Source: a virus
Virus record (IMG/VR): IMGVR_UViG_3300044527_000635
Span: 1-62,493 of that record
Reading direction: 5' to 3' (one strand)
DNA: 62,493 nt
The notes under the pieces were generated by a model. The model saw nothing but the letters and a program-made list of their open reading frames with translations, made no database searches and was not told the origin of the DNA. Position 1 is the stretch's first letter, and every line of letters starts with the position of its first letter. Position numbers and translations under genes: made by a program. Positions 8,401-33,886 of the stretch are shown piece by piece.

Positions 8401-11400
8401 GTACATCGGGAAATCTTTAAGTAAAGAATTTTTCCCCAATATACTAAACGCCGAAATAGATGTTTTGTTAAATTCAGAGAAGCAAATTCAATGTAATATA
8501 AATATTGACGATTACAATGCTTACCAAACGCTTTGTATTGGAAATGCAATAAGGCCTTTGGATTTCAACAAGAGAACTGACAATTTATTAGAGAGAGCAG
8601 CTTTACTGCGACTAAAAGGAGACACTCAAAATCAATTACAAGCATATAACAGATTAAGAATAGATCAAACTTTTTTATCAAATTCTGTTACCCTTGAACA
8701 AAACCAAACAGTCGTTTTACTTCCCTTAAGCGCTGCTCAAATATACGATGCAGCAAACGATAAAACTGGGCCATTTATTCCTTCTTATTTCATAACTAAC
8801 AACAAAAAGATAGAAATTTTTAAAGATACTTTTGTAGGATACGCAGACAGTATTAAAGTAAATCAAATTTCTTTTGACAGAATTTCTTTATCAAAAGCTT
8901 TTTCAGGAGGCATAATTTCAGAAGGATATTCTAAAAAAATTAGCGTTTATGACACAGCAGGAGTTTTACCTTATTCTTCGTCAAACGATTATTGGGACGG
9001 GACTTTTAAAGAAGATAAAGAATGGACAGACAATCCTGCTTGGTGTTTTTATGATCTATTAACTAATAAAAGATACGGGGCAGGGAACTATGTTTCTGAA
9101 GCTGATGTAGATAAATGGTCGCTTTATCAAATAGCCAAATATTGCGATGAACTCGTTGCAGATGGTTTTGGAGGAGTCGAACCCAGATTCTCTTGTAATG
9201 TTTATCTTCAAAGTCAAGAAGACGCTCTTAAAGTATTAGCCGACATGGCTTCTGTCTTTAGAGGTATGTTCTATTATTCAAATGGATTTATTTATACAAT
9301 AAATGACATGCCAGAAAACACTCCTGTTTATTCTTTTACTAATTCGAACGTAACGGATGGTAATTTTAATTATGAATCTACTTCACTAAAAGACAGAAAC
9401 TCTGCTGTTTATATTAGATATATTGATAAAAATAATTTTTATAAACCAGCAGTAGAATATGTGGAAAATATTGAAGCATTTAGAAAATTCGGATTTAAAG
9501 AAACTGAATTAACAGCATTTGGATGCACTAGTAGAGGACAAGCCCAACGATTAGGAAGATGGTTATTAGCTTCTGAATATAACGAAACGGAAACCGTATC
9601 TTTTGAAGCAGGTCCAGAATCTGTTTATTTAAAACCCGGAGATGTGATAAAAGTTCATGATTATTACAAGAAGCATAAAACAGTAGGGGGGCGGTTAAGT
9701 AATATAAACATTTCTGGAGATATAAATGTCACTACTGGGACACTAACATTAGACAGAAAACTTGATTTCAATTTTTCTGGTGATCAGAACTATAAATTTA
9801 CTATTGTTTCTCCTAAGTACAACTTAGACCCTAGTTTTAAAGACACAGCGGGGAACAGTATTGTCACTAGTAATCTTGATTATAATGATTATAGGAAACC
9901 TCTTACTAATTCATTTATAGTAGGAAGCGGCAACTTAATTACTGGTCAATATTATGATTCTATAAGAATCACAGGTTTAGCTCCAGTAATGGCTTCTGGA
10001 CTTAATGTAACTGGTTTAGCGTATTTTACAGGCGCTTCGGGAATGTCTCCCAAATCAATAACTTGGGCGTTGGAAAATTCAGGAAATCTAAACGGAACTA
10101 CAGATAGTGATTATGATTTTTATAGAATTTTCAGAATTCAAGAATCTACTGAAGGGACGAACTACACAGTTATAGCGTCTCAAATGTATCACTTAAAATA
10201 TACCCAGATAGAATCTGGATTAAATATTACCCCCGCAAAAGCACCAGCACCAGAAGCCTCTGCTCCATTAAGAGCCTTATTCACTTCGCAGGAGACTAAC
10301 GTAGTGCTTGACATTTTTTATGATTCTTCAATTAAAAATAGCACTATAGGATTTAAAGTTTTTGCAAAAAATTTCTATCAATCAGACTTTGATCCGAATA
10401 AAGACACAAATTTTAAATTTGTTTCAATAGATATTTATGAATCTTTTACTAAAACTACATTAACTAAAAGTCAAGCAAGAGGTTTTATAAGAGTTTATGG
10501 AGTAAATATTAATAATTCTTCTCCTCTTTCTTATGTTGAAGCTGTAGACTCCACAGACGCTTTAAAAACAACTGCTTTTCCTGTTCAAGAAATCAGTTAT
10601 ACAAACGTGATTAAAGCGCAAACTATTGTCAATAATGTGACATACGAATTTGACAATCCTATTGCTTTAAATAGAAATCAATATTTTGCTGTAATTGGAA
10701 GTTCTCTTAATTTTAATATACCTTTAAATTTTATAGATAAAGTTGTTTTTAACAATATTGATTATCCTTATAGAGTAGTAATTATCCCTGAATTAGTAAA
10801 TAGTAAAGGGGCATTTGGGACTGCTTTCGGAAAATATTCCGCTCTTGATCCTGTAACACAAACAGAATATTTAACATTTGATAGTGACAATGCCTCTGAT
10901 AACGGTTATCTTTATAACTCTTTGAGTACTTTTGGTAGGTATAGAAGTTTTTCTTTAGCTATTGATAAAGGAGGGCTAACAGACAAAGGATTCAAAACTA
11001 CATCTGATTCTTTTAAACAAGAAGCAGGATTTCTATTAGTAACCTATGACAATAAAGATGCAGACATAATAGAGTATTTAAAGGCAATCTTGAACGGGGG
11101 TACATATGCAATATATCCAATTAATGGGACCACTTCGCGTCGATTAGTTTTTAACGTTCCAATACTCTCAGATAATTTCGTTAATTTCTTTTATTTATTA
11201 CTAACCCCTATAGAAACAACTTTTTCTTTTACTAAATATTCCATAATTCACGACGATGACGGAGAGCCAAAATCAATAAAACAAGGAAACGATGAAATAA
11301 TTGATTCTCATTTTATAAAAATATCGAAAGATCAATCAATCTTTTATTTTGACAAGGTTCAAGATGATAGTGGAAAAGCTTTTAATTTAGACTCTTATAA

Positions 11401-12808
11401 AGTCGTTTTAATAGCCGTAGATTCTTTTATGATCGCTTGGCAATATTCTTCTGACGAAACATCAAGAAAAATTTTAGATTATTATTCTAAATCAATTGAC
11501 GCGGCAAGTCAAATTAATACTACTTATCCGCTAATTAGTCCACCTAAAGAAATAAGCAAAGCATCTGATGCAACGCCGTTGTCTTATTCACTAGAAAATG
11601 TTTTAAAAACTAATAATGGTAATTACGTTCATTTCTCAATTAATAAAACCGTTTTAACTCAAAATCAAGTATCCATTTTATCCGCAAATAACACTGGCAG
11701 AAATTATCAGTCATTTTATAGACTATCAAGACAAAGCGTAATTTATAAACCTACTTTGGTTACTAATTTAACAGCTAATAATGTTGACAATAAAGTAATA
11801 GGATCAGAACCAGCCGCTACTAATTCTTTTTGTGCGCTTTCTTTACAAAATAGAGATTTGACAGGGGGCAGTTTCCCTTTAAATGTTAAAATTGAACCTA
11901 GCAAAAGGGCTTATATTTTAAATGGGAATAAAATTTTTACAAGAGCTTTAGAATTAGATGCGACAAATACAAATGATAAAAGCCCTGTTTTATTAAAATC
12001 AATCGATGCAGAAGTAGGCAATAATAAATATAAAGTAAAATTTGGAGCTAAAACAAGCGACTTCGGTTTAGACAGACAAGAGTTTTTCGATATTTCTATC
12101 ACAAGAATTATACAAAATACTAATTTTCTTGGAGCGAATAAAGAAGCATTTATTGATTTCAGTAAAGAATTTTATTTTCTGTCTTCCAGTTCTTCTTATG
12201 GAAGCATTCTAACAGATGAAGTTAGTAAAGGATTATTTAACGGCGCTTTTAATTGCGTAAATGTTACTCCTCCAAATAATTTCTCTCAGTTTTTGACTCC
12301 TTCTCAAATTCAAATTTCTATAAATCCAGAGCCGACTGTAATTGACATTCCTTTTATAGCAGCGGCAGAGTTTTCTACTTTTACTGGAGTGGGTAATCTG
12401 GGCCATAATTTCTATTATGGAGTTCCAGTATTAAAAAATGAAAATCTAAAAATTGTATTAACAATCCCCGATGTTCAAGAGAAAAAGAATATAAAAATAT
12501 TTTGTTTTCTTGGAGACAATTTCGTTAATAGTGAAGTCGATAAAACCGAACTTACAGTTGGGAATAACAACATAACAGTAACTTTAAAAGACCTGCCTTA
12601 TGCAAATTATTTCACCTATCGGCAGACTTATGCAAATAATGATTCAATAAACAATGCAACTTTTTGGAAATTTCGAAGTATAAAAAATTTATCTTTTGCT
12701 CATTATGCTGTTAGAAAGCCCCCTTTTAGTAGGGACCTTTATACTGACGCTTCTTTTTATTTTTACATTCAAACATTAGAGCTATCAATAGTTATGACTT
12801 ATGCATAA
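5483..12808 (+). CDS. J: Tail tip attachment protein J (host specificity) with inserted LamG-like domain
   Basis: The product has 2441 residues, about twice the length of lambda gpJ. A Gly-rich start (GFGGGGGG) is followed by VKDLLSEGPIGGLLEG, a hallmark of J N-termini. The conserved core lies at about residues 1180-1390: NPAWCFYDLLTNKRYGAGNY, AKYCDELVADGFGG, EPRFSCNVYLQSQEDAL, FGCTSRGQAQRLGRW and GDVIKVHDYY. A LamG/concanavalin-like domain is inserted at about 455-705 (GLIAQFDASNP, FTVFIVCKW, VFEVLVYNRKLATSES). The long C-terminal part is probably built of beta-sandwich modules that reach the receptor. J forms the central tail-tip hub and usually sets host range. No Shine-Dalgarno sequence is visible before the ATG. 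Confidence 0.88.
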   Translation: MNNFEDFKYIKGFGGGGGGSQSPQPTAAYEDVEGFVYNGQPYGVYQFAKVKDLLSEGPIGGLLEGQYLYSGQVGDLGFKKVIYNEYSSVVGENSESKYLRSIQWNQTPLLDSQEKYNFQQINVQVTNGTPEGTSLDQGFDSVSYIRSIGERLRGPNQLARTTDEVLDYQRTYRILNKECKKISLNFRISSLYVTLKYQDLTEVRDGKIKIEGVESATATDFKLTRTGRETEDGNLDAIVAGAGSVIRNKFKIRIKISPIYNEGYNANLPTLDLTSNTATIIKDNQNLVIDVDNVPKLFEIESDGKVTQGYSKQIILNTSNVFSGLNEDQNWAGWDITVLKITPEDTFSARASFISLESITETYSSSFRYTNSAIVTSKFNAGYFSKIPERSYDVNLLKVKVPFNYNPITKTYGITTPLAPTITTTISKTDGETTEDFFLGENGNYVNADNVNPPITDGLIAQFDASNPSLTTSAGEVTSWPNTVAGTIKCVLGNGTYAAPAGTTARPKYGSSHSEQSPNGNYGVTFETTQKVKFIGNADSTEAISKDDFTVFIVCKWHSSALNTERNSILASFPVQHYIFGQTQKINRYFAAGNTNLDMPQTQSNIPKFSSRSNYWGDTNDPTTYIIGLTQDKTSFYTVFWQNTIRSTQRNTVSVLPLLGLAINHNVSLNSKCTVFEVLVYNRKLATSESISVRNWLNKKWNVLVQNITSISSSAIPQAFNPNVFDIPLSSSISIPLKTLCANGQATKAFKYEGGDQNINFFNNPYYQMDLIPTRNLQVTSEKGYLKDQGFSGCYCDFFIKLKDISYAGTYSLINREEQFNLSMAINGEVVSLILKIISPNDGKIYTITKQLNTSKYSTTKLKNTFTRITLSILPKVVNPKVTFNEVARVVANINLNDKTWDKTPLVDTQKPQLRDQAGKLEASVKGLPSLLIQGVSFKEDSLYNSQIDNLAATCYKYFYGTTKTFLATGGGWYIGKSLSKEFFPNILNAEIDVLLNSEKQIQCNINIDDYNAYQTLCIGNAIRPLDFNKRTDNLLERAALLRLKGDTQNQLQAYNRLRIDQTFLSNSVTLEQNQTVVLLPLSAAQIYDAANDKTGPFIPSYFITNNKKIEIFKDTFVGYADSIKVNQISFDRISLSKAFSGGIISEGYSKKISVYDTAGVLPYSSSNDYWDGTFKEDKEWTDNPAWCFYDLLTNKRYGAGNYVSEADVDKWSLYQIAKYCDELVADGFGGVEPRFSCNVYLQSQEDALKVLADMASVFRGMFYYSNGFIYTINDMPENTPVYSFTNSNVTDGNFNYESTSLKDRNSAVYIRYIDKNNFYKPAVEYVENIEAFRKFGFKETELTAFGCTSRGQAQRLGRWLLASEYNETETVSFEAGPESVYLKPGDVIKVHDYYKKHKTVGGRLSNINISGDINVTTGTLTLDRKLDFNFSGDQNYKFTIVSPKYNLDPSFKDTAGNSIVTSNLDYNDYRKPLTNSFIVGSGNLITGQYYDSIRITGLAPVMASGLNVTGLAYFTGASGMSPKSITWALENSGNLNGTTDSDYDFYRIFRIQESTEGTNYTVIASQMYHLKYTQIESGLNITPAKAPAPEASAPLRALFTSQETNVVLDIFYDSSIKNSTIGFKVFAKNFYQSDFDPNKDTNFKFVSIDIYESFTKTTLTKSQARGFIRVYGVNINNSSPLSYVEAVDSTDALKTTAFPVQEISYTNVIKAQTIVNNVTYEFDNPIALNRNQYFAVIGSSLNFNIPLNFIDKVVFNNIDYPYRVVIIPELVNSKGAFGTAFGKYSALDPVTQTEYLTFDSDNASDNGYLYNSLSTFGRYRSFSLAIDKGGLTDKGFKTTSDSFKQEAGFLLVTYDNKDADIIEYLKAILNGGTYAIYPINGTTSRRLVFNVPILSDNFVNFFYLLLTPIETTFSFTKYSIIHDDDGEPKSIKQGNDEIIDSHFIKISKDQSIFYFDKVQDDSGKAFNLDSYKVVLIAVDSFMIAWQYSSDETSRKILDYYSKSIDAASQINTTYPLISPPKEISKASDATPLSYSLENVLKTNNGNYVHFSINKTVLTQNQVSILSANNTGRNYQSFYRLSRQSVIYKPTLVTNLTANNVDNKVIGSEPAATNSFCALSLQNRDLTGGSFPLNVKIEPSKRAYILNGNKIFTRALELDATNTNDKSPVLLKSIDAEVGNNKYKVKFGAKTSDFGLDRQEFFDISITRIIQNTNFLGANKEAFIDFSKEFYFLSSSSSYGSILTDEVSKGLFNGAFNCVNVTPPNNFSQFLTPSQIQISINPEPTVIDIPFIAAAEFSTFTGVGNLGHNFYYGVPVLKNENLKIVLTIPDVQEKKNIKIFCFLGDNFVNSEVDKTELTVGNNNITVTLKDLPYANYFTYRQTYANNDSINNATFWKFRSIKNLSFAHYAVRKPPFSRDLYTDASFYFYIQTLELSIVMTYA

Positions 12809-12823
12809 TAACAGCTAATTAAA

Positions 12824-13522
12824 ATGAAACATTATATTATATATTTTATTAACGGTAGTTATAAAATTATTCAGTCTTCAATTAATTTAGTAGAAGACAC
12901 AGATCATCTCTATTTTTTAGGAATAGATTATCACTTGGTTGATTATATCGTCCAATTAAATAAAAATATTACCGACAACGATTTAAAACATAGGAAAATC
13001 CTTCCAGACGGCAATTCAATTTGGAACAAGCATGATTTGATTAATGAAAAAATTCAAAGAATGACAGAAGAGAGAAGTTCTTTATTGCAAAAACTTGATG
13101 TAGAATTTATGATTTCTCTTGAAATTGCTAACAATAAACAGACAGAGATTATTAAAAGAAATAAAAATTTCTTAAGACAACTCTCTTGCAGAACAGAAAT
13201 GCATCATATTCATGACTGCGAGAAAATTAATAAGTTTAACGCTTTCCATAATATAGTAGACATAGAAATCATTGACCCCGGTTACGGATGCTCAGAGTCT
13301 GTCCCTCATGTCACCATCTCTCGTCCTGAAGAGACTGACTATAACTATGGATTAGCAGCGGCTGCTAACGCTATTAGAGGATCAAAAGGAGAGCTACTTT
13401 CTTTATCTATGGCAAAATTAGGATGCGGCTACATATCTGAGCCTACAATTGAAATCAGTGGATATGAAGGAGAAAACGCAAAACATCCTGTGTTAAAAGC
13501 TGTTATTTGTAATATAATATAA
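12824..13522 (+). CDS. Tail-tip accessory protein with chaperone-like segment and G-x-GY-x-P repeats
   Basis: This protein of 232 residues follows J by 15 bp. Residues of the type LLQKLDVEFMISLEIANNKQ-TEIIKRNKNFLRQLSCR resemble short phage tail-assembly-chaperone segments (L-x-x-LD-x-x-(F/Y)-x-x-(A/S)-LE... K-x-x-LR-x-L). The C-terminal third has two beta-type modules (IIDPGYGCSESVPHVTISRP and LGCGYISEPTIEISG) of the G-x-GY-x-x-x-P class found in phage fibre and structural proteins. A fibre-assembly or adaptor role at the tip is possible. The function is not established. Confidence 0.6.
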   Translation: MKHYIIYFINGSYKIIQSSINLVEDTDHLYFLGIDYHLVDYIVQLNKNITDNDLKHRKILPDGNSIWNKHDLINEKIQRMTEERSSLLQKLDVEFMISLEIANNKQTEIIKRNKNFLRQLSCRTEMHHIHDCEKINKFNAFHNIVDIEIIDPGYGCSESVPHVTISRPEETDYNYGLAAAANAIRGSKGELLSLSMAKLGCGYISEPTIEISGYEGENAKHPVLKAVICNII

Positions 13523-13524
13523 AT

Positions 13525-14352
13525 ATGACAGACGTATTGTTTTCTTCCGGCGACGAATTTGCGTACTCTAATAATTTAGCAAATTGGTCTTCAATTAATT
13601 CAGGCCAAGAGATCGAAATAATTGGAAGCCCAGAGAAGTTCTCTACTGTTCGTGTTGATTTTATTAGCTACAATAAAGTATTTTCTGTTGTTTCTGAATC
13701 AAGAATTAAATTTGACTCTAATGCAAAAGATTTAATACTAGACGGAGATACAATTGATTGTTTTTTTAAGACTTATTATGTCGCTGTCATTAATGATGTT
13801 ATTGAAAAAGGCAATGGATATCAAGTCAACGAAGTAGTTAGTGTATCTAAGGATTGTTATTTTGATAATTTTTTAGACAAGAAAGAAAAAGCATTATTTA
13901 AAATTACTTCTGTAAATGCTGAAGGCGGCATTTTAGAACTAGATCTAATTAGTAAAGGCAAATTTTGCCAAAACTTTAGCGAAGCGGAGATAGAAAGCAG
14001 TTCTGGGAAAGGAGCTAAGATCTCTTTTATCTTGGGTGAAAATAAAAACAAAGAGCTTAAATTCTTTTCTGTATTAGATGTTAAACACCAAGATTCATAT
14101 ATTACCGCAGATCTAAATGAAAAGATTAAAAATCCTTTTCTCTGCGGCGAAATGCATATAAAAAGATATCGTATTACTTTAAATAAATCGCTAGGTAAAG
14201 AATATCTTTCTCACCCTTTTATTTTAAAAGTACAAAACACTCCTTTCTTAAACTTGCCGCTAGCCAAAGATAACAATATAGAGCAAATCTATAATCAGGC
14301 TATACTGACTATAGACTCTAAGATTAAAGAATTATCTACTGGAGTAAAGTAA
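13525..14352 (+). CDS. Hypothetical tail-tip accessory protein
   Basis: This protein of 275 residues is the last gene of the plus-strand operon, 2 bp after the preceding stop. It looks like a beta-rich structural protein. VIEKGNGYQVNEVVSV and GGILELDLISKGKFCQNFSE recall the G-x-GY modules of the preceding gene, so the two may share a fold or act together. There are no catalytic motifs or membrane segments. Its last 21 bases overlap the 3' end of the oppositely oriented tape-measure gene, with no clear terminator between the two units. Confidence 0.5.
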   Translation: MTDVLFSSGDEFAYSNNLANWSSINSGQEIEIIGSPEKFSTVRVDFISYNKVFSVVSESRIKFDSNAKDLILDGDTIDCFFKTYYVAVINDVIEKGNGYQVNEVVSVSKDCYFDNFLDKKEKALFKITSVNAEGGILELDLISKGKFCQNFSEAEIESSSGKGAKISFILGENKNKELKFFSVLDVKHQDSYITADLNEKIKNPFLCGEMHIKRYRITLNKSLGKEYLSHPFILKVQNTPFLNLPLAKDNNIEQIYNQAILTIDSKIKELSTGVK

Positions 14353-17300
14353 TCCTCCGGGTCTCTTTTGTTCGACTAATACTTCAACAACTTTGCTTCT
14401 AAGTAACTCAGCAAGTTTGCCATTGTTTTGCATGCTGTTCTGATCGTTTTTAGAATTGGATGCGCCTTTTTGAGTGGTGGAGTTAGCTTCAGAGGTAACT
14501 TCGCCGCCTTGAGACATGTTGATTGAAATATTGTTTACTACAGACATGCCAGACTCTTGAGCAGTTCCAGCAAGAGAAGCTCTTCCTGATTCTGATTGAG
14601 TTATTCCCGAATCCTTAGATAAGTTATCATTTAAAGTATTCAACGCAGTTACTAATTCATCCATGCTAGAAGACTGGTCTGTATTGCTTTGACCGCTATA
14701 ACTTGTGCCAACCATCCCGCCGCTAGCATATTTAGGAAGAGAACCAGAATTCAATTGACCCATGAAGTCTTTGCCGTACATATCGACGGCTTTTTTATTC
14801 ATGACGTATTCGCCGCCCATTAACAAAGCGGGAATATTGTCTTGGCCTGTAGAGCCGCCGCCAGCAAATTTGGCAATATAACCTCCTCCTGCTCTAAGAT
14901 TTTTTGCATATTGTTCATTTAATTGCGATTGACTTAAATTGCCTCCCGGTTCTAAACCTCTTCCCGCAGAAGTAGAAGCTCTACCCCTTAAACTCTCTGC
15001 TCCCATTGTAAGTCCAGCAGCGCCTATTTGGACAGCAGCAGCAGTTAATCCTGAATAGAAAGTGCTATTTACTTGATTTTTATAGTTTTTAAGGCTCTGT
15101 TTCTTGTCTCTCTCATATTGCGCTCGGTCTTGTAAGTACTGATCAAGTTTTTCATAACGATCTTGTCTTAATTTATTTTGAGGGTTATTGTCGTCAGTTA
15201 GAGCCATTGCTGACAATCTAGAATCAACAGCAAACTCTCCAGAAGTTGGGCGATCAGGATTATCGTACAAGAATTCATTTTGCAATGGGCCAACAGAGAA
15301 TCCTCCAGTCGCGTATCTTGGAATAATTCCACCATTTAGATTTCTTAAATAATCAGATCCATATTTATCAACAGAAGATTTCTTAATGACATACTCGCCG
15401 CCGCTCATCATCGCGGGCACATCGTCTTTCATCCCAGAGCCGCCAGTAACCATACCTCCAGAATTATAGCCTTTAATTGGTCCTCCATCTTTCCTGCCAG
15501 TTGTAGCAGCTTTACCAAAAGCAAACAAAGCATCAACGCCCATCTCTAGAGACTTATCAAGCATTCTATTTAAGATGCCTTGGAACATGTCTCTAAATGC
15601 ATCCTTAAGGGTTTTAGTGCCTTTAATAGCTTCGCCAAATGCGCTGCCAATACCAGACTTAAAATCAGTTTGAAATGTATCAATTAGTTGACCAGTGTCT
15701 TTTGCGAAGTCTGCTCTATTGTAAGTGGTGTTCTTCTCTGTGATTCCTCCTACATCGACTTTCCCAAGTCTAGCATTGTCTTCTATTTGGGAATTCATTC
15801 TGGCGGCTTTTTCTTCTTTGAAGAATGTGTCGCCGTAAGCTGAACCGTAAAGCCTCTTTGTTTCTTCTTTTGTTTTATTTAAACGCTCAGTTACTTTTGC
15901 TCTCTCATCTGCTATTTGCATTTCCAAGTACATTTGAGCGGCTAATTCTTTATTACCATCTCCATAAATTTTATTAATTTCTTCTATCTTTTTATTTTTT
16001 TCGATTTGAATACCCTCTTGAGCTTTAGCTAAATCTCGCTCTGCATCTATTAAAGATTGAGGTTTTGCTGGAATTGACGAAGAAGTTTTCCCAACTGAAG
16101 GATTGAATTCATAAAATTTAAAATCTGAAGAAGCGGCAGGAGTATTAATTTTATTAGGAAAATTAGAAGTTGGCGTTGATTGCGATTGATAAAGCTTTGT
16201 TAAAATAGAATTTAAATTCTCAAGTGGGACATTTAATTTTAAAGCCAGCTTTTCTCTATCTGTATATGCAATTGGATTATAAGGACCTGCATCACCCCCC
16301 ATTGGCATGCCTGATGCACTAGGATTAGCACTTCCAAAAAGCATACCAGAATTAGCCATCTGAGATCTTATCTCTGTCAAAGCTTTTTCTCTTTCAGAAA
16401 CTGAAGCTATTGGTAATAGATTTCTAATTTCTTTATTTAATTCTGCTGTATTTTGAGTATCAACAAGTTGCTTTAATGCTTCGCTCAAAGATCTATTTAA
16501 TTCAGTTATTTTTGATCCTACTTCAGCCTTAGAAATATCATAAAAAGCTTTAGTTATATCAGGAGCTTGTTTTGCTAGGATTTCTGTTTGAGTCTTCGCT
16601 AGCTCATTCGCATATTTACTTTCTTGAGCTAATAAATCGAAATAAGTTCCTATATTATCAAGCTTCAATTGAGAAGTCACTTGATCAATAGCAACGCTCA
16701 TTGCGTTTTCATTGAAGTTATCAAAAGCTTTCTCCAACGCACCGCCTGATTGAATTCCGCTTCCTGTTTGCCCTATCAATGAAATATTAGTTAAAGCTCT
16801 TGCTCTTTCGTTTTCTTTTTTAAGCTGTTCTGCTCTTGCGGTTATTGAAGCATTTTGTAATGGAGCTAATTCTGCTCCGACTCCTCCGCCTCTAATCCCA
16901 TACTGATTAGAAATCGTATCCAGCAATTTAAACAATCCAGATCCTGTTTCTGTTGGATTTCCTACTCTAACATTTTGTCCCAAAGTAGAAGTCAATTCAG
17001 TTAGCTTATCAAATAAATCAGAAACCCCAACTTGACCAGTTGATCCCAAAGCTGCGGCACCGCCAGCAAGAGAAAGCTTTTCAGATAGAGCTACGCTTCT
17101 TCTTTGATAATCAGAGTTTACTTTTTGAATAGCTAAATCAAATTTTCCTTGTTCAGTAATTTTAGTTAACTCGTTTAAAACTCCTTCAAAAGTATTTTGT
17201 AATTCTCCTGCAATTAATTCGGCTTCTGGCTTCTTGAAAAGACCCGTTGCAGAGACTCCTTGAATTAATTTGTTTTTTACTACTTCTATATTGCCACCAG

Positions 17301-20300
17301 CGCTTAACTCTTTCAAAGAAGAAGCGATTAGAGGAGAAATACCTTGGATATTTTTATTAAAAACGTTTAGTTCTTTTGTGATATCCTCTGGAGACTTTGA
17401 CAAATCTGTTACTGCTGGAAGAGCTTTTGATCTTATGTCTTCAGCTTTTTTAGTAATAATATCAGTGAAAGAAGACAATCCTTTATCTAAAGCGCCTCTT
17501 ACTTCAGAGTTTTGTTTATTTTGAAGATCTGTTAAAGCTAGGCTTGATTCTGCGGCGGTTTTACCTGCTTCAGTCATGAAAGGGGAAGCTAAACTCAAAG
17601 CACCTTTTGTCCTTGCTGAAGCTAATTGTACAGAGCCTTCTGCTTGTATTTTGTTTAGCTCTCTAAGAGTAGTAGCTCTATTTTTTTCTGCCTCAATTTG
17701 AGAAGAGAGAGAAAGATTTAGATTTTCATATCTTTGAGTTAAATCCTTTAGGATATCTGCATTCTTTTTAGTTATTTCAATATTTTGTTTTTGAATAGCT
17801 ACAAGGTTGTCCGCAGCTTCTTTAGAAGAAAAAACACCTTTACCAAATTCATCGATTGCATCAAAAAGAGATTTGACATTTTCTACGCTAATATTTTTAG
17901 AAACTTCTTCAAATTTAGCAGCAAGTTCTGGTCCAAAAATACCCTTAGATTCTAATTGCGATCTAATTTGTTTCAAACCTAATTGATCGACATTAGTTCT
18001 CTCGACAAATTTAGGAGCAGACGAACCTACAAAATTAGGATTAGCTCCATATTCAAGAATTTTATCAGTTTTTATTGATTGACCTTTTAAATTACTAATA
18101 AAAGAACCAAATTCTCCTGCGCCACCTTTAAATCCAGAAAGCACTTTTTGAGGATCTATTGATTGAGTAAATAATCTATTTAATTGATCTGAGTCAGCTT
18201 TTTTTAAATTGCTTCCTGCAATAATTCCTGTTTTATCATTAACTAATTTAGTAATAGCCAATTGCCTTTCTAAACTTTGTTGAGCATCGGACATTTCTTT
18301 ATTTACTCTAGCAATAGCATCAGCTACTTTACCAATATCAGTTCCTGCGGCTAATACCTTTCCTCTAAACTCATTAGGAATAGAAGCAAGAGAATCAGTT
18401 ATACTTGTTTGAAATTTTAATAAGGCTTGAGGCTGAGTTTTTGGATCATTTAAAGCATTTTGTAAGCTCTCTAATGAGGTTGCATAAGTTTGTGATGCGC
18501 CAGAGAACTTTGAAGAAGATTCCTTAACTTTATCTAAATTGGTAGAGATGTCAAAGATGGCTTGTTCTGCTTTTGAATCTACTATCTTTTTGGCGGCTAT
18601 CCCTACTCCGATTAGTGCGCCAGCAGCAGCGCCAACTGGACCAAATGCAGCACCTAAACCAGCATATTGAGCGACATCCGCAGCGCCCGAAAATGCGGCT
18701 TTCGTTTTTTTATCGGACTCAGGGACAAATTGTTCTGCAATATTTAATGCCCCAGCCGCTGCTAAACCTGCACCAGTTCCAGAAGACCTAATTAAATTAT
18801 TAAGTTTACCACCTTCTTTTAAGCTTAAAGGTAAATTAGTATAACTTGCTGTGGCTATTTTGTATTCTTGACTGCTTTGTTGTTTAGCAGACGCTCTTGC
18901 TATTGCTTTTTGCTCTTCTACTTTTGCTTTAATTGACTCAAACTCTTCTTTTTGTTTTTTGTTAACCATCTGGCCACCAGATGTTCTAAGTGGTCCTGTA
19001 ACATTTAAATCTTTATCAATATTAGAGAAACTAAATTTTGATTTAGCTTCTGTTTTTAGTTTTTTAACAGCATTGCCAGCTTCAGAGATCTCACTTCTTT
19101 TACTCTTTATTAAATTTTGGGTTTGAGTATTAATTTCTTTGAAGCCGCCAGCTAAAGATTTTAATTGACTTCCAAAAGCGATAAAAGCTACAGTAATCAT
19201 TGAAAGATCAAACTCATCTGCAAAATTAGGAATAAAACCTTCGGCCATCCCTTTGGTTTGAGGATTGATCCCCGCTTTCTTTGCTAGAGAAATTCCATTT
19301 CCTAGACTTCCTTCGGTTGTGTTGTAAACGCCAAGACCGTTTGGATTAAATGATGTTTTTAATTGACTATTTTGACCCAGTTTAACTTGAGAAGAGGAAT
19401 ATCCAGCAGACATCTCTCTTGCTACTGCTTCTTGAATTGGATTAAAATTAGGAATAAAGCCAAAAGCTTTTTTGCCACCGGGAGCAATTCTTTTAACAAT
19501 ATTAGTAACTTTTTCTCCAGAAGCTTTTAGTTTAGAAGCTTCGGCTGCGATATCTATTGAACCAGCTTTCGCTCTTTCCTCATCTTCAAATATTTTGATA
19601 TAGCCGCCAAATTCTCTTTCAATTTTTTTTGCAAAACTTGCTTCGCTATCATCATCATATCTAAGTTTATAGTCACCTAAATTACTTATAAATCCGGGAA
19701 ATAGTTGACGCACCTTATTAATATTAGTGCCTCCTCTAACGTCAAAATCACCTCCGCCTTTGCCTTCTCTAGAATAATCTTTTGAGAGGTTAACTCCAGC
19801 TTCAAATATTTTTCCTGCAAACTGCGCTGCTGGATTTTGTACAGCACCAAGATATTTTTTTCTTGATTGCTCGGTAGCCTTTTCTCCTCCGGGTAATCCG
19901 TCCGCAAAGTCAGTTAATAATTGATTAGCAAAAGAATCAGATTTTGCTCTTAGATCTACTTTATTACTTTCTAAAGCCTCTTTACTAAGGTTAACAACTT
20001 TAAAAGATATTGGAACATTTCCAGCCCCTCTACTCCTCTGGATTGTTTGACCAGACATTTGTGGACTTTCTAAAGTAAGCATCTCTGCTTGAGCCATATA
20101 TGGAGGCAATTGAGCGGCCTGTCTTTCTACTTCTCTTTCTAAAGCAGCTTGTTTTGGTAACCATGTTGGATTTTTAGAAATTCTTCTAATTTCTTCAATA
20201 GGTACTCCGCTGTCAGAGGCTCCATTTAAAGTAGCATTAGTCCATTTACCACCAAGAGTACCATCTGCATTTAAGAAAGCAGTTTTATATTGACCTCTCT

Positions 20301-22233
20301 TTTGACCAGCAGTAAGCCACTCTTCAACCGTAGGAGCGAAATTAGGCACATAACCCTTAGCCATATAAGGATTAACTCCCGTCTGATTCATTGAGCGAGA
20401 AGCTAATGAAGAAGCAGCTTTAGAACCTGCTGGAGGAAGTATAAATGGTTGACTAAAACCGGGAACATATTTTACTGTTTCAGCAGTATTCATTACTCCC
20501 CCAACAGAAGCAGGAGCATTAATTACATTACCAGCAACATATCCACCTTTAGCAGCAGAGGAAACTTCTGCTACCCTATCCTGCATAGGAATATACCCAC
20601 CGGCTTTTCCTTTAGTAACTCTTCCTTTTGTATCGGCTCCTATTCCTTGCTGCATTAAACTCTTAGCTAAAACAAGAGAAGATTTATCCATTCCCTGTAA
20701 CAAAGCAGACTGGTCTAATAAATTTTTTGTAACTTCTTTTTCTACATTGAGACGAGCCGTAGCTGACAAAGTCATTTGCTGCATTAAAGTAGGTTGCTTC
20801 GTAAGTATAGCTGAAATACCTTCTTGCAGCACTCCTTGTTGTTGAGATATAGTATTTAAACCTAAAAAACTTGAGCCAGCATCTTTTGCGAATTTACTAA
20901 ACGTAACGAAAAGCTTGCCCAAACCAATTATCCCTATCGCCACGCCGGGGCCAGTAATAAAATTAGTTATACCGCTTATAATGCCAGTTCCAATTTTCGC
21001 TCCAACGCTTTCGGAATCTTTATCATTTACAGAAGAAAGTTGGTCATTAATAAAGCCTAAAACTTTTCTAATTCCCGGAGCAACGCTTACAGAACCTACT
21101 TTAGCAGCAAACTGAGTTGCATTGGCAGTAGTTTCACTAAGCAAAGCAGATAAACTTTCGTTTAGGGCTTTATTTTTTACGATAGCTTCATCAACTGCTC
21201 TTGAAGATGCATTTGTAGCCCCAGCGAAAACAGAGTTTTCTTTAGAAAGGTCAGCTAAAGAGGCTTTTAAAATGTTAATCTGATAAACGCCACCAACTAA
21301 TTCAGCAACTTGAGATTTAACTACTGGGCTTAAGTTTTGGAAAGATTGAGAAAGGTTTTCCAATACTTTTATTGCTGGTAATGCATTCCCAGAAAGATCA
21401 GTAACTGTCACTCCAAAGTCTCTTAGGTCATTAATTACTTGAGGTCTTTCTATTCTTGTAAAAATAGTCTTTAAGGCGTTACCGATAACAGCACCACCAC
21501 GGGCAGTAGTTTGCTGAACAGAAGTTACGATACCTAGTAGTTCATCAAAGCTCACGCCAGCTTCACTGGCTGAAGAACCTACACACTGAATAGCTTCAGA
21601 AAGATCTCTTGAACTTACAGCAAATCTAGCATCAACCGCAGCCAGTTTATTAACAACTTCAGTAGTGGTAAGAGCTTCTTTTGTAAATGAGTTTACGGCA
21701 GAAGTCAGAGCCTCTGTACTAGATACTACATCGAGACCAGACAAGCGAGTAAGCACAAGAGCATCTCTTGTTCTTCTTAAGGTCTCCTCTAACCCCAAAC
21801 CTTGTCTTGAAAACTCTGTCGCCGCAGCAGCTACATCTTTAAAAGAAGAGCCAGTTTGTTTTGCGACATTAAATAATTGATCTCCAAATTGCCTAATTCC
21901 AGAAGAAGATGTATTTAATACAATATTAATATCAGTGAGTGATTTTTCTACTTCAATAGTAGAGCTTACTAATGCACTAAAAGCTTTCTGTACATTGTAA
22001 ATAACGCCAGCAGAAGCTCCGAAGGCGATAACACGGGCATTAGAAGCCTCTAAAGATTTTTGAAATTCATTAGCTTGACCAGTGATTTTGCCAAGCGGCT
22101 GACTAAAGTTCTTAGTATTTAAAGTAAGAGAGCTTTTACTTTGAATACGATTCAACGCTGCCAAAACATCTTTTTCAAGCTGGGCAGAGCCAAACGTCGC
22201 CGAAATGGGAATATTACCTGCTGATGTAGCCAT
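14332..22233 (-). CDS. Tape measure protein, 2633 residues, with embedded nuclease-like domain
   Basis: The N-terminal region matches the TP901-type tape-measure core (FKDVAAAATEFSRQGLGLEE, SVQQTTARGGAVIGNALKTI, FTRIERPQV). Hydrophobic segments lie near residues 415-450, 1005-1025 and 1200-1225 and may serve membrane insertion during DNA ejection; coiled coils follow. The C-terminal part repeats the tape-measure motif GGEYVIKKSSVDKYGSDYLR and GGEYVMNKKAVDMYGKDFMG. Three (Y/F)-(V/I)-PNF boundary motifs occur near residues 625, 924 and 998. Between the first two is a domain with GKIFEAGVNL, GGGDFDVRGG and GDYKLRYDD, resembling a PD-(D/E)XK nuclease core. Tape measures set tail length, here predicted at about 0.4 micrometre. 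TAAGGACAT before the ATG provides a ribosome binding site. Confidence 0.9.
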   Translation of the reverse strand: MATSAGNIPISATFGSAQLEKDVLAALNRIQSKSSLTLNTKNFSQPLGKITGQANEFQKSLEASNARVIAFGASAGVIYNVQKAFSALVSSTIEVEKSLTDINIVLNTSSSGIRQFGDQLFNVAKQTGSSFKDVAAAATEFSRQGLGLEETLRRTRDALVLTRLSGLDVVSSTEALTSAVNSFTKEALTTTEVVNKLAAVDARFAVSSRDLSEAIQCVGSSASEAGVSFDELLGIVTSVQQTTARGGAVIGNALKTIFTRIERPQVINDLRDFGVTVTDLSGNALPAIKVLENLSQSFQNLSPVVKSQVAELVGGVYQINILKASLADLSKENSVFAGATNASSRAVDEAIVKNKALNESLSALLSETTANATQFAAKVGSVSVAPGIRKVLGFINDQLSSVNDKDSESVGAKIGTGIISGITNFITGPGVAIGIIGLGKLFVTFSKFAKDAGSSFLGLNTISQQQGVLQEGISAILTKQPTLMQQMTLSATARLNVEKEVTKNLLDQSALLQGMDKSSLVLAKSLMQQGIGADTKGRVTKGKAGGYIPMQDRVAEVSSAAKGGYVAGNVINAPASVGGVMNTAETVKYVPGFSQPFILPPAGSKAASSLASRSMNQTGVNPYMAKGYVPNFAPTVEEWLTAGQKRGQYKTAFLNADGTLGGKWTNATLNGASDSGVPIEEIRRISKNPTWLPKQAALEREVERQAAQLPPYMAQAEMLTLESPQMSGQTIQRSRGAGNVPISFKVVNLSKEALESNKVDLRAKSDSFANQLLTDFADGLPGGEKATEQSRKKYLGAVQNPAAQFAGKIFEAGVNLSKDYSREGKGGGDFDVRGGTNINKVRQLFPGFISNLGDYKLRYDDDSEASFAKKIEREFGGYIKIFEDEERAKAGSIDIAAEASKLKASGEKVTNIVKRIAPGGKKAFGFIPNFNPIQEAVAREMSAGYSSSQVKLGQNSQLKTSFNPNGLGVYNTTEGSLGNGISLAKKAGINPQTKGMAEGFIPNFADEFDLSMITVAFIAFGSQLKSLAGGFKEINTQTQNLIKSKRSEISEAGNAVKKLKTEAKSKFSFSNIDKDLNVTGPLRTSGGQMVNKKQKEEFESIKAKVEEQKAIARASAKQQSSQEYKIATASYTNLPLSLKEGGKLNNLIRSSGTGAGLAAAGALNIAEQFVPESDKKTKAAFSGAADVAQYAGLGAAFGPVGAAAGALIGVGIAAKKIVDSKAEQAIFDISTNLDKVKESSSKFSGASQTYATSLESLQNALNDPKTQPQALLKFQTSITDSLASIPNEFRGKVLAAGTDIGKVADAIARVNKEMSDAQQSLERQLAITKLVNDKTGIIAGSNLKKADSDQLNRLFTQSIDPQKVLSGFKGGAGEFGSFISNLKGQSIKTDKILEYGANPNFVGSSAPKFVERTNVDQLGLKQIRSQLESKGIFGPELAAKFEEVSKNISVENVKSLFDAIDEFGKGVFSSKEAADNLVAIQKQNIEITKKNADILKDLTQRYENLNLSLSSQIEAEKNRATTLRELNKIQAEGSVQLASARTKGALSLASPFMTEAGKTAAESSLALTDLQNKQNSEVRGALDKGLSSFTDIITKKAEDIRSKALPAVTDLSKSPEDITKELNVFNKNIQGISPLIASSLKELSAGGNIEVVKNKLIQGVSATGLFKKPEAELIAGELQNTFEGVLNELTKITEQGKFDLAIQKVNSDYQRRSVALSEKLSLAGGAAALGSTGQVGVSDLFDKLTELTSTLGQNVRVGNPTETGSGLFKLLDTISNQYGIRGGGVGAELAPLQNASITARAEQLKKENERARALTNISLIGQTGSGIQSGGALEKAFDNFNENAMSVAIDQVTSQLKLDNIGTYFDLLAQESKYANELAKTQTEILAKQAPDITKAFYDISKAEVGSKITELNRSLSEALKQLVDTQNTAELNKEIRNLLPIASVSEREKALTEIRSQMANSGMLFGSANPSASGMPMGGDAGPYNPIAYTDREKLALKLNVPLENLNSILTKLYQSQSTPTSNFPNKINTPAASSDFKFYEFNPSVGKTSSSIPAKPQSLIDAERDLAKAQEGIQIEKNKKIEEINKIYGDGNKELAAQMYLEMQIADERAKVTERLNKTKEETKRLYGSAYGDTFFKEEKAARMNSQIEDNARLGKVDVGGITEKNTTYNRADFAKDTGQLIDTFQTDFKSGIGSAFGEAIKGTKTLKDAFRDMFQGILNRMLDKSLEMGVDALFAFGKAATTGRKDGGPIKGYNSGGMVTGGSGMKDDVPAMMSGGEYVIKKSSVDKYGSDYLRNLNGGIIPRYATGGFSVGPLQNEFLYDNPDRPTSGEFAVDSRLSAMALTDDNNPQNKLRQDRYEKLDQYLQDRAQYERDKKQSLKNYKNQVNSTFYSGLTAAAVQIGAAGLTMGAESLRGRASTSAGRGLEPGGNLSQSQLNEQYAKNLRAGGGYIAKFAGGGSTGQDNIPALLMGGEYVMNKKAVDMYGKDFMGQLNSGSLPKYASGGMVGTSYSGQSNTDQSSSMDELVTALNTLNDNLSKDSGITQSESGRASLAGTAQESGMSVVNNISINMSQGGEVTSEANSTTQKGASNSKNDQNSMQNNGKLAELLRSKVVEVLVEQKRPGGLLYSSR

Positions 22234-24387: not shown

Positions 24388-25569
24388 TTATACAAGAGGC
24401 AATGTTTCAAACATGAACATTCCTCTATCGGTTTGTTGAGGAGAACCAACTTGAGTAGTGAAGTTTAGTGTTACTGATTTATTAGCGCCAATTGAAGAAG
24501 ATATCTCTTGAGAATCTAGGCTCAATCTCTTGAGGACATATCCAACGCCTTCATTAGTAGCCAAATTATTGTTAGCATTAGCGGGAGCGCCCAAGATGAC
24601 GACAGCGTCATAAGTAGCATCATTATTTATTACATCAACAAGATTTCCAGTGGTAAGATCTTGAACTAGAGCATTCACGCTGAAAGAAATAGTAACTGGG
24701 AAATCAATTTCTCTAGAGAAAGCGTATTTACTACCGAGTTTTTGTAATGGAGTTCTATTTAAACCCATTGAGATAGAGAAATTTTGGATAGCAGCAGCAG
24801 TAGTGACATCTGTACCACCATAAGCTTGTCCGGCTGTCTTTGTTAGCGTAAGAGTAATATCTCCATGTCTCAATGCTGAAATTTTACCTAATGTATTTTC
24901 ACCATTAGGATTTGTAGCAGCCTGTGGCAGACAAAAGACTCCACCAGCGACTGCTCCAGCACTAGTTACACCGGGAGCGTTTCCTGAATTTCCAGCAGTA
25001 AAGTTCATATTCAAGCATTCAACGGTAGAAGAAACAGTTGGGAAATCTCCTACAGCAGCATTTATGCTATAATTAGTCAAGAAACCATTTCCTAAACCAA
25101 TTGTATTTCCTTTAGTGATATTTTCAGTAGCGTCGGGTGCAAATGTAGAAGCGTCATTGCCTTCAGTAACAGTTCTAACATAGTAATTTTTAGTGTTTAC
25201 AGTTCCACTAGTTAAGATTCCAGATAAGCAAGACTGAACAGCATTGGCAGAAGTAATGCCAGCGGTAGTAGTTTGATCTGTTATAATAGAAAAGCCTAAA
25301 TTCTTTTCATTAGCCATATCTGAAAGTAGATATGAAAAATCTAGACCAACAACTGGTTGCTCTACGATAATACGATCAATAGCAGCAAGATTGCCGAATT
25401 GATTAACATCTTTTCTCGCAATATTAAAATTATAATTACAAGATTGAACGCGAGAAAACTGGTTTATATATAAAGCTCCAGTTTGTGATGGTGTAGAAGC
25501 TGATACATCAATAAGATCATTTGTATTGAATAACGCTTCTGATTGGTAAATTACACGATTTCTTGGCAT
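24388..25569 (-). CDS. Major tail tube protein candidate (paralog A)
   Basis: This 393-residue protein starts MPRNRVIYQSEALFNTNDLI. It belongs to a family with members at 25630-27291 and 55020-56294, and more distant ones at 689-1507 and the left edge. Shared blocks are N-terminal RVIY-x3-L, QSCNYNFNIARKDVNQFGNL, GNGFLTNYSINAAVGDFPTV, FSISMGLNRTPLQKLG and SSSIGANKSVTLNF. It is the tube gene nearest the chaperone and tape-measure genes, has its own promoter-like element, and is followed by a strong terminator. These points favour it as the main, highly expressed tube subunit. Confidence 0.7.
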   Translation of the reverse strand: MPRNRVIYQSEALFNTNDLIDVSASTPSQTGALYINQFSRVQSCNYNFNIARKDVNQFGNLAAIDRIIVEQPVVGLDFSYLLSDMANEKNLGFSIITDQTTTAGITSANAVQSCLSGILTSGTVNTKNYYVRTVTEGNDASTFAPDATENITKGNTIGLGNGFLTNYSINAAVGDFPTVSSTVECLNMNFTAGNSGNAPGVTSAGAVAGGVFCLPQAATNPNGENTLGKISALRHGDITLTLTKTAGQAYGGTDVTTAAAIQNFSISMGLNRTPLQKLGSKYAFSREIDFPVTISFSVNALVQDLTTGNLVDVINNDATYDAVVILGAPANANNNLATNEGVGYVLKRLSLDSQEISSSIGANKSVTLNFTTQVGSPQQTDRGMFMFETLPLV

Positions 25570-25629: not shown

Positions 25630-27291
25630 TTAAATTACATCAGGTATCTGCATCCAATAATCTCCATGCATTAAAATACCCTTAGTTGTGTCTTGAGGAG
25701 AACTCATTTGCCCTCCAAAAGTTAAAGTTGCTGTTTTATTCGCTCCGATTGACGAGCTAAAACTCATAGATTCTAATAGTGTAGATTTGGCCGTGTATCT
25801 AGCTCCTGTGATTCTTCCTAATGAAGAATTTTCTGTTCCGGGCTTAATGTGAGAAATTGACACATCGAAAGAAACATCTTTACCAGTAACCATAGTTAGT
25901 AGATTTCCAACAACAAGATCAGAAACCAAAACATCTACAGAAAGAGAATAATTAATTGGGAAAGTTATTTCTTTGGAAAATTCAAAAGTATTTCCTAATT
26001 TCTTTAGCGAATCTCTTTGCATGGCAATTGATAAGCTGTAGCTTTGAGCATTTAAAGAAGCTGAAGACGTATCGATACCAAAACCAGAAAGAGCATATTG
26101 ACTTAAATCAAGAACAATGCTTCCGGGTTTAAATACTGAAACATTGTTAGTCAAATCACTCGTATCATTAAAATCGGGTAAAGAGAATGTTCCATTTACT
26201 CTAGATCCATTAGAATCTAATGAAGGCAATTGATAACGTTGCCCAGCCGCAGAAGATTTAAAATTATTAGCTCCTGTGTGAAAAGAAATATTCCTAGCTT
26301 CATTGCCAACAGTAACAGTAGGGAAGTCTCCGACAGCGCCATTTGTAGCGTAATTATTCATTACAACATTTCCAAATGCAATAATCGCTTGATCTAATGT
26401 GCCAGTCGTAGCTACTGTTACGTCGTTTCCTTGAGCGACTGTCCTAACGAACATGTTTTTATCGTCAGTAACTTTCGTTAAGATCCCAGATAGGCAAGTA
26501 ACGTTGATAACGCTAGTCGTTCCTTCTGGATAGTTATTTACTAAAGTTGGAGAGAAAGCGTTGCCATTACTCGTGCCGCCAATTCCAACGTTAACTGGAA
26601 CATTAGCAATAGAAATTGTACTCGCGATTTGACTATTATTTATCCAAATCTCTCCTGATCCTCGGTTAGTTATTGAGACCCCTGTCGCTTGACCAGCAAA
26701 TAGGCCTCCCGTTGCGACACCAAAAGAAAGCACTGGAGCTACATTGGGCGCTGATTGAGGTAAAGTTAATATAAATGGATTTAAATATCCTTGACCGCCA
26801 TCGACAATAGAAGCCGCAGTTATTCCAAATTCATTATCTCCAGAAGCAACGATAGTTAAATTCACAGTAGCGCTTCTCTTGAGCGCCTGAACATTAAATC
26901 CCAATTCCTTTTCATTAGCGAAGCTATTTTGAAAGTAAGAAAAATCCAACGAAACAGTAGGCTGATCAATTATAACTCTATCAATTGCGGCCAAAGCGCC
27001 AAACTGATTTACGTCTTTCCTTGTAATATTAAAATTATAATTAATACTTTGAATACGATCTAAATTAGTAATATTTGCGGCCAAGCCGCCAGTCATTTGT
27101 GCCAAAGAAGCACTTGCCGTAGTGTTGCCTGAATTTACTGTTCGCACAGAAAGAGGGTCTAATTGACTCAATTTTTGAGTTGGGACATTTGGAGCATTAT
27201 CGCCCGTAACGAATTTATAGTGTCCACTTGTAGCTGGGCTAGGGCCAACATATAAAGCTTCATTTTGGTAAATTACTCTTGTTCTTGGCAT
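25630..27291 (-). CDS. Tail tube protein (paralog B) with inserted beta module
   Basis: This 553-residue protein starts MPRTRVIYQNEALYVGPSPA and aligns with the 393-residue protein over most of its length: INYNFNITRKDVNQFGALAA, FGNVVMNNYATNGAVGDFPT, YSLSIAMQRDSLKKLGNTFE and FSSSIGANKTATLTFGGQMS. The extra length comes mainly from an insert at roughly residues 165-275 containing GGQGYLNPFILTLPQ and ITNRGSGEIWINNS, the G-x-GY-x-x-P module also seen in genes next to J. Such inserts in tube proteins often project from the tail surface. The ATG lies 6 bp downstream of the preceding gene. Two tube-like genes in tandem may make alternating or zoned rings. Confidence 0.7.
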   Translation of the reverse strand: MPRTRVIYQNEALYVGPSPATSGHYKFVTGDNAPNVPTQKLSQLDPLSVRTVNSGNTTASASLAQMTGGLAANITNLDRIQSINYNFNITRKDVNQFGALAAIDRVIIDQPTVSLDFSYFQNSFANEKELGFNVQALKRSATVNLTIVASGDNEFGITAASIVDGGQGYLNPFILTLPQSAPNVAPVLSFGVATGGLFAGQATGVSITNRGSGEIWINNSQIASTISIANVPVNVGIGGTSNGNAFSPTLVNNYPEGTTSVINVTCLSGILTKVTDDKNMFVRTVAQGNDVTVATTGTLDQAIIAFGNVVMNNYATNGAVGDFPTVTVGNEARNISFHTGANNFKSSAAGQRYQLPSLDSNGSRVNGTFSLPDFNDTSDLTNNVSVFKPGSIVLDLSQYALSGFGIDTSSASLNAQSYSLSIAMQRDSLKKLGNTFEFSKEITFPINYSLSVDVLVSDLVVGNLLTMVTGKDVSFDVSISHIKPGTENSSLGRITGARYTAKSTLLESMSFSSSIGANKTATLTFGGQMSSPQDTTKGILMHGDYWMQIPDVI

Positions 27292-33093: not shown

Positions 33094-33886
33094 TTTGTTC
33101 CTTTATATTGTTAAGATAAATGTTAAAATTTTCTTTGGTTGCGTCTTTTAGTTTGACTAGTTTATGATACTGCTTATGACAAGGATTGCATAATGTTATT
33201 AAATTATTGACTTCAAATCTATCGCCTGAAAAATGTTTCCATGAATTTAAATGATGAGCATGTATATTTTTATTAGAATCGCAAATAACACATTGGAATC
33301 TATCTCTTTCGAAACAAGACCTAGAGAGTCCTTTAAGGATGAATTTTTGATTTTTTCTTAATTTTCTTTCTTCTTCTGTTAAATTGTGATTCCAAGCATG
33401 ATGTTTCGGACCAACTCTTTCTTTCGATGATCTTCTAACGCCTTCAATTTTTCTTTCTCTTTGCAAGCATTTGCATGATCCTACATTTCCATTTTTTAAA
33501 TCTTTAGAAATAACATGATGTTTGTTTCCGCAATCACATTGGCACAACCAATACCATCTATCATTTTTTCTATAAGATTTTTCTAAAACAATTAGTCTAT
33601 TAAATCTTTGACCAATAATTGATTTATCGACTCTCTCTTCTCCTGAAATTCCTAATTTGCATTTATGACAATAACAATCATTCGACCTATTAAAAGCAGA
33701 ATAAGGAGTTTCTTTTATCACTCCACATTTATCACATTGATATTGGATTCTAGAAGCGCTATTTTTCTTTAACATTTCTACAGGCAAATTTATTTTGTCG
33801 CCGACGTTACAAACAACTCCTTTGGATCTATAATAATTTACAGTTCCACCTACAATTAAAATTGGTAATGTTTTTGTAATTAACAT
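33080..33886 (-). CDS. HNH homing endonuclease with zinc-binding N-terminal region
   Basis: The protein has 268 residues. The HNH core is FERDRFQCVICDSNKNIHAH-HLNSWKHF and LITLCNPCHKQYH, containing the two CxxC zinc pairs and the HH catalytic pair. The N-terminal half has further CxxC pairs (YQCDKCG, CYCHKC) and the region WYWLCQCDCGNKHHV-GSCKC, typical of phage HNH enzymes with DNA-recognition repeats. It lies between two adhesin genes: 3 bp after one, and overlapping the start of the next by 14 bp. It is probably a free-standing mobile gene that spreads by cutting related phage genomes. Confidence 0.88.
   Translation of the reverse strand: MLITKTLPILIVGGTVNYYRSKGVVCNVGDKINLPVEMLKKNSASRIQYQCDKCGVIKETPYSAFNRSNDCYCHKCKLGISGEERVDKSIIGQRFNRLIVLEKSYRKNDRWYWLCQCDCGNKHHVISKDLKNGNVGSCKCLQRERKIEGVRRSSKERVGPKHHAWNHNLTEEERKLRKNQKFILKGLSRSCFERDRFQCVICDSNKNIHAHHLNSWKHFSGDRFEVNNLITLCNPCHKQYHKLVKLKDATKENFNIYLNNIKEQSASV

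Follow-up and report, generated by a model that had tools for sequence, protein, structure and literature searches.

Tape measure proteins (TMPs) are usually viewed as rulers of the tail and as formers of the DNA channel, and the enzymes known within them are cell-wall hydrolases. The TMP gene described here raises the question of whether such a protein may also carry, enclosed within its chain, a nuclease that is delivered together with the genome. The gene is located on a stretch of DNA of 62,493 nucleotides from an IMG/VR virus record (IMGVR_UViG_3300044527_000635), which is hereafter referred to as the window. A sequence-only reading of this DNA had proposed that a segment of the TMP between two -PNF- motifs contains acidic and Lys residues in the layout of the PD-(D/E)XK nuclease superfamily, and that the enclosed enzyme would be ejected into the host.

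Organization of the tape measure gene and its PNF motifs

The gene was identified as a TMP gene by its match to PF10145 (E=4e-30) and to several PHROG tape-measure families, and a tail-hub-like gene with PF13550 is located nearby at 5483-12808. We infer that the virus carrying this TMP is a siphovirus. The features of the gene are listed below with window coordinates and strand.

14332-22233 (-), tape measure protein gene, 2633 aa
21301-21867 (-), PhageMin_Tail domain (Pfam PF10145), residues 123-311
20338-20355 (-), first boundary motif GYVPNF, residues 627-632, with a recombination edge against the relative L189 at codons 632-634
19462-20337 (-), cargo slot between PNF motifs, residues 633-924, with jumps of dS against the relatives L189 and L192
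20029-20337 (-), N-terminal part of the slot, residues 633-735, outside the region common to 60 nuclease homologs
19564-20004 (-), putative PD-(D/E)XK-type nuclease domain, residues ~744-890, delimited by the HMM family and the AlphaFold core
19801-19815 (-), GxxFE motif, residues 807-811, with invariant G and E and the putative catalytic E811
19741-19743 (-), putative catalytic D831
19666-19674 (-), D-x-K, residues 854-856
19624-19638 (-), following helix in the model, with S866 and K870
19444-19461 (-), second boundary motif GFIPNF, residues 925-930, found by motif search
19240-19443 (-), short conserved GLGVYNT module, residues 931-998, which recurs as segments of ~70 aa in many TMPs
19222-19239 (-), third boundary motif GFIPNF, residues 999-1004, found by motif search
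18595-18651 (-), hydrophobic, membrane-like stretch, residues 1195-1213, found by hydropathy scan

The PNF tripeptide is located at residues 630, 928, and 1002, and a fourth PNF, at residue 1399 (GANPNF), differs from the other three in its context. The three peptides on which the earlier proposal was based, GKIFEAGVNL (residues 807-816), GGGDFDVRGG (826-835), and GDYKLRYDD (853-861), are all exact in the translation and lie between the first two motifs, and the third motif was recovered as the GFIPNF that starts at residue 999. The window positions given in that proposal were right, but its residue numbers were a few too low.

By scanning viral contigs with a degenerate GFIPNFA pattern, at least 120 stretches were found, and nearly all of those listed are located in large TMP-like ORFs that bear several such motifs. 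Among the matches listed, 52 TMPs are sufficiently complete, and 51 of these have their first motif within residues 531-571 or 615-650.

The tail genes on the 3' side of the TMP gene (window 5483-14352, +) are ~50-77% identical to those of the relatives G006 and G053, and the genes upstream are 89-100% identical to the same relatives, indicating strong mosaicism around the tail tip. Elsewhere in the window, an HNH-endonuclease gene (33080-33886, -) lies between two related structural genes; two Laminin_G_3 (concanavalin-A-like) domains are present in a structural protein encoded at 31003-33093 (-); two adjacent paralogs of 393 and 553 aa (24388-25569 and 25630-27291, both -) are ~36-45% identical in parts and have no family match; and an ERCC4-type nuclease gene (60048-60986, -) adjoins the large terminase gene.

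Conservation of the nuclease-like domain

Close relatives found in viral contigs are 76-100% identical. By an iterated HMM search seeded with the window domain, a total of 68 copies were aligned, of which 60 constitute the alignment A3 and are mostly 13-32% identical to the window domain. Only G807, E811, D831, and K856 are invariant in these 60 homologs, and in all of them position 854 is D or E and position 870 is K or Q, while position 810 is F, with Y once. In the unfiltered HMM scan, the E was present in 82 of 83 aligned sequences, the D in 83 of 83, and both the D/E and the K in 86 of 86. The residues follow each other in the order E, D, (D/E)xK of the PD-(D/E)XK superfamily. Lack of conservation of the acidic and Lys residues would have spoken against the proposal; they are essentially invariant across very divergent homologs, indicating that the motif is more than a matter of chance. 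The dN/dS ratio within the domain is 0.16-0.28, which indicates that the domain is under constraint.

Fold and profile comparisons

AlphaFold prediction from the single sequence gave a pLDDT of 36, and the 60-sequence alignment A3 was used instead, giving a mean pLDDT of 78 with values mostly above 90 over residues ~745-865. In this model, E811 is located on a helix and D831 beside a short strand; D854-x-K856 is found at a strand, and the helix after it contains S866 and K870. The order of the elements fits the superfamily, the core of which is an alpha/beta fold around a central four-stranded sheet, but the model has few strands and no evident canonical last strand.

A Foldseek search of the modelled domain against PDB and BFVD gave no significant match to any nuclease. 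By hhalign against self-built alignments of Mrr_cat (PF04471) and UPF0102 (PF02021), the probabilities were 0.6% and 0.1%, respectively, neither significant; the positive control of Mrr against UPF0102 reached only 18-63%, indicating that this test is insensitive. The sole piece aligned with Mrr was the GxxFE helix. Within the putative PD-(D/E)XK group, the hhalign scores were above the others (p=0.005), a weak comparison because the group members had been picked by the motif, and the comparison limited to the two known families was not significant (p=0.31). No match to the family was obtained from Pfam, PHROGs, NCBIfam, or PADLOC, apart from scattered weak matches of single members in Pfam and PHROGs. 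When the nuclease profile was compared with PDB sequences, only lectin and further unrelated chains sharing a GxxFE-like stretch were returned, and these were judged to be spurious.

Of the earlier assignment to the PD-(D/E)XK superfamily, the active-site layout thus stands, while the fold itself found no structural or profile match. Since neither Foldseek nor the Mrr and UPF0102 profiles gave a significant result, the domain is classified as PD-(D/E)XK-type by motif, and its membership in the superfamily is putative.

Exchange of the slot at PNF motifs

Two related TMPs, L189 and L192, are 98-100% identical to the window TMP over residues 1-632, 61-77% over residues 633-890, and 93-96% over residues 931-1005, and the identity is lower again over residues 1006-1200. 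Against these two relatives, dS rises from 0.03-0.24 in the part that ends at the first motif to 0.5-1.0 in residues 633-890, and it is 0.24-0.30 beyond the second PNF. The dense differences start at codons 632-634, that is, at the first PNF, and in L189 the right edge of the exchange is already passed by residue ~891. Mosaicism was also seen elsewhere in the TMP and in the tail genes downstream, indicating that recombination is not confined to the slot; the feature specific to the slot is that its left exchange edge coincides with PNF. The PNF motifs are therefore module boundaries that coincide with recombination edges. Release of the domain by a protease at PNF is possible.

The backbone and the domain were compared for 50 TMPs with an N-terminus among the matches listed. 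The domain identity was below 40% in 25 of the 38 nuclease-bearing pairs with a backbone identity of at least 65%, again among the matches listed, and examples of backbone versus domain identity are 88 versus 26%, 87 versus 23%, and 84 versus 19%. The reverse case was observed for one pair, with 68% identity in the N-terminal backbone and 94% in the domain. In L194/L012 (66% over residues 1-560), this nuclease was absent even in the unfiltered scan, and another E..D..ExK-like segment was present. The genes upstream of the TMP gene are 99-100% identical between relatives that differ in the cargo allele, and no allele-matched immunity gene was recognised on this upstream side; the downstream tail genes differ between these relatives and are mosaic as a whole.

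Cargo in the PNF-bounded slots of other tape measure proteins

A total of 105 TMP ORFs with at least two motifs were surveyed among the matches listed, many of them truncated where the contig ends, and the sequences lying between PNF motifs were grouped into clusters; the counts describe this sample and are not population frequencies. By the unfiltered scan, the nuclease family of the window was detected in 68 of the 105 TMPs, in 72 segments among the matches listed. When families recognised by motif only were counted, 82 of the 105 carry at least one nuclease-type cassette among the matches listed. A staphylococcal-nuclease (SNase)-like slot domain was identified by the match to a PDB thermonuclease (E=1e-6), and PF00565 was above the cut-off in L106. 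Five more cargo families have E..D..(D/E)xK-like layouts, as judged by eye, and are possibly other PD-(D/E)XK types. The non-nuclease cassettes include a Walker-A P-loop family, a GNAT match in a PNF slot (E=2e-5), and a TMP segment of 800 aa that matches a GHKL ATPase (E=5e-5, slightly short of the family cut-off). By motif alone, a kinase-like family (VKKF, DLHGxN, and DPG) and a HAD-like family (DWDGT) were distinguished, both without a significant PDB sequence match. The locations of these cargo types are as follows.

L106:8760-9362, L113:763-1311, L091:9909-10457, and L010:3278-3910 (all -), SNase-like slot domain
L008, L014, L022, L035, L079, L091, L097, L105, L113, and L119, E..D..(D/E)xK-like cluster 3
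L022, L047, L079, L097, and L105, E..D..(D/E)xK-like cluster 6
L008, L027, and L056, E..D..(D/E)xK-like cluster 11
L012, L099, and L106, E..D..(D/E)xK-like cluster 12
L061, L117, and L122, E..D..(D/E)xK-like cluster 17
L061:7387-7992 (-), L122:7261-7875 (+), L031:3864-4460 (-), and L051:2604-3200 (+), kinase-like cargo by motif

The GHKL-type segment (L126:9740-12175, -), which is the same in L030 and L045, also contains an HExxH stretch and adjoins a nuclease cassette.

The GFIPNF motifs thus delimit exchangeable cassettes in many TMPs. Distinct enzyme domains of several kinds, as expected of carriers of injected effectors, were found across the TMP group; in the window TMP, one cargo domain was recognised. 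The proposal of an enzyme enclosed in the TMP is strengthened, because the PNF slots of other TMPs contain other enzyme types, the SNase-like domain included. An intein was considered and set aside, since similar slots contain unrelated domains.

Distribution of the domain

In 27 virus records, the nuclease domain was detected in TMP-sized frames only, and among 24 bacterial and archaeal genomes it was detected in a single Flavobacteriales MAG, again in a TMP-sized frame. A tblastn comparison of the window slot, and of three other TMP regions, with 50,697 phage records (E<=1) gave no match; as far as tblastn can tell, such cargo therefore seems to be rare in the sequenced phage records. A scan of genome contigs with one member of the nuclease family gave no match. 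The PNF pattern in genome contigs was found mostly in single-motif ORFs, together with two TMP-like ORFs, L142 (NZWA01000041.1) from a Flavobacteriales MAG and L130 (RFYG01000107.1) from a Proteobacteria MAG, of which the MAG binning is a possible but weak hint of the host.

Proposed function and alternative explanations

The reading that we favour, and hold to be rather probable, is that TMP residues ~744-890 constitute a nuclease of the PD-(D/E)XK type that occupies a PNF-bounded slot of a siphovirus-like TMP as an exchangeable cassette and would be delivered to cut DNA. The TMP would carry the nuclease cassette inside the tail, and the cassette, being placed between the conserved N-terminal part and the hydrophobic stretch at residues 1195-1213, would travel with the TMP and leave the tail together with it during genome entry. 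In the newly infected cell, the nuclease would cut DNA, most likely host DNA or the DNA of elements that reside in the cell or co-infect it; the time or place of cutting, a modification, or the target specificity may protect the DNA of the phage itself. The conserved modules at the PNF motifs would serve both as hinges and as anchors of recombination, and the other slots would deliver other enzymes likewise. Siphophage TMPs act at the inner membrane in the course of injection: that of lambda contacts proteins of this membrane upon ejection, and the host nuclease SNIPE makes use of the contact (PMC13190303).

It is unlikely that the domain is a non-nuclease enzyme or a binding domain in which the invariant E, D, and D-x-K stand together by coincidence; the failure of Foldseek and of the profiles to match any nuclease fits such a domain, but the conserved set corresponds to the active site of the superfamily, down to the K/Q on the following helix, and the only piece that hhalign aligned with Mrr is the GxxFE helix. 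An active nuclease might instead serve its own phage by processing phage DNA in packaging, ejection, or entry. The TMP and the phage DNA share the tail channel in siphophages, and the nuclease type is the commonest cargo, both in accordance with such a role. The slots, however, vary widely among related TMPs, some being without a recognised nuclease, and a housekeeping enzyme of genome processing should not be so exchangeable, which makes this role improbable.

The nuclease might also spread itself in a homing-like manner inside the reading frame, by cutting TMP genes without the cassette and being copied into them. The movement of cassettes between backbones, as in the pair with the diverged N-terminus and the nearly identical domain, and the exchange edges at conserved motifs are as expected for such an element, but similar PNF slots contain P-loop, GNAT, and other non-nuclease domains, and in many cases one diverged allele was exchanged for another, not a full slot for an empty one; we regard self-spreading as quite improbable. 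Ordinary variation in TMP length and sequence, with the segments as structural filler for tuning the tail length, is very improbable. Tail length in siphophages is set by TMP length, and other parts of the TMP are mosaic as well, but filler does not account for the invariant catalytic-type residues under purifying selection or for the recognisable enzyme domains in other slots.

The favoured reading of a delivered nuclease cassette may be extended to the other TMPs. In related viruses, slots of this kind contain other nucleases or enzymes of different types, which suggests that the tails deliver interchangeable proteins together with the DNA. Whether the GFIPNF slots form a general cassette-swapping system of effector delivery in a large, mostly uncultured group of siphoviruses, through which nucleases, acetyltransferases, ATPases, and probably kinase- and phosphatase-like proteins would enter the host with the genome, is in our estimate an evenly balanced matter.

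Comparison with known systems

Some TMPs carry built-in cell-wall hydrolases, and the window TMP is similar to these in having an enzyme domain within the TMP, but is different in that a nuclease would need to act in the cytoplasm or on DNA rather than on the cell wall. With the PD-(D/E)XK superfamily, the window domain shares the E on a helix, the D, the (D/E)xK at a strand, and the K/Q on the next helix, but it is embedded in a TMP, has no model in four libraries, and gave no significant fold or profile match (Mrr_cat and UPF0102 as the test cases). The polyvalent proteins of phages and conjugative elements (PMC5512222) are likewise large and multidomain, contain several enzymes, and are thought to be injected with DNA, but here the carrier is the length ruler of the tail and the slots are bounded by GFIPNF; the phrase "tape measure" is absent from the text of PMC5512222. 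Polymorphic toxin systems (PMC3482391, PMC5576092) also combine a constant carrier with exchangeable effector domains, but there the effectors are C-terminal tips, whereas the TMP slots are internal, and no matched immunity gene was recognised for the TMP cargo on the upstream side, which may argue against a classical polymorphic toxin. The cargo protein Mif1 of the contractile injection systems MACs (PMC6748791) is similarly carried inside a tail-like tube and delivered to a cell, but it is a separate protein delivered to animal cells, unlike the domain described here, which is a covalent part of a phage TMP.

The related literature includes polyvalent injected proteins (PMC5512222), conflict systems of jumbo phages (PMC7824862), polymorphic toxins, and cargo in the tube lumen (PMC6748791). 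Within the literature searched, which lay outside preprints and most subscription journals, no report was found on cassettes of cytoplasm-acting enzymes in TMPs or on the GFIPNF motif, and the priority of the finding is not certain.

The nuclease family is new to the models of Pfam, PHROGs, NCBIfam, and PADLOC, and the GFIPNF motif offers an easy way to search metagenomes for such cargo. If the proposed delivery is true, any phage of this group would, on entry, bring effectors into the cell before any of its own genes is expressed, with a bearing on early host shut-off, counter-defence, and competition between phages.
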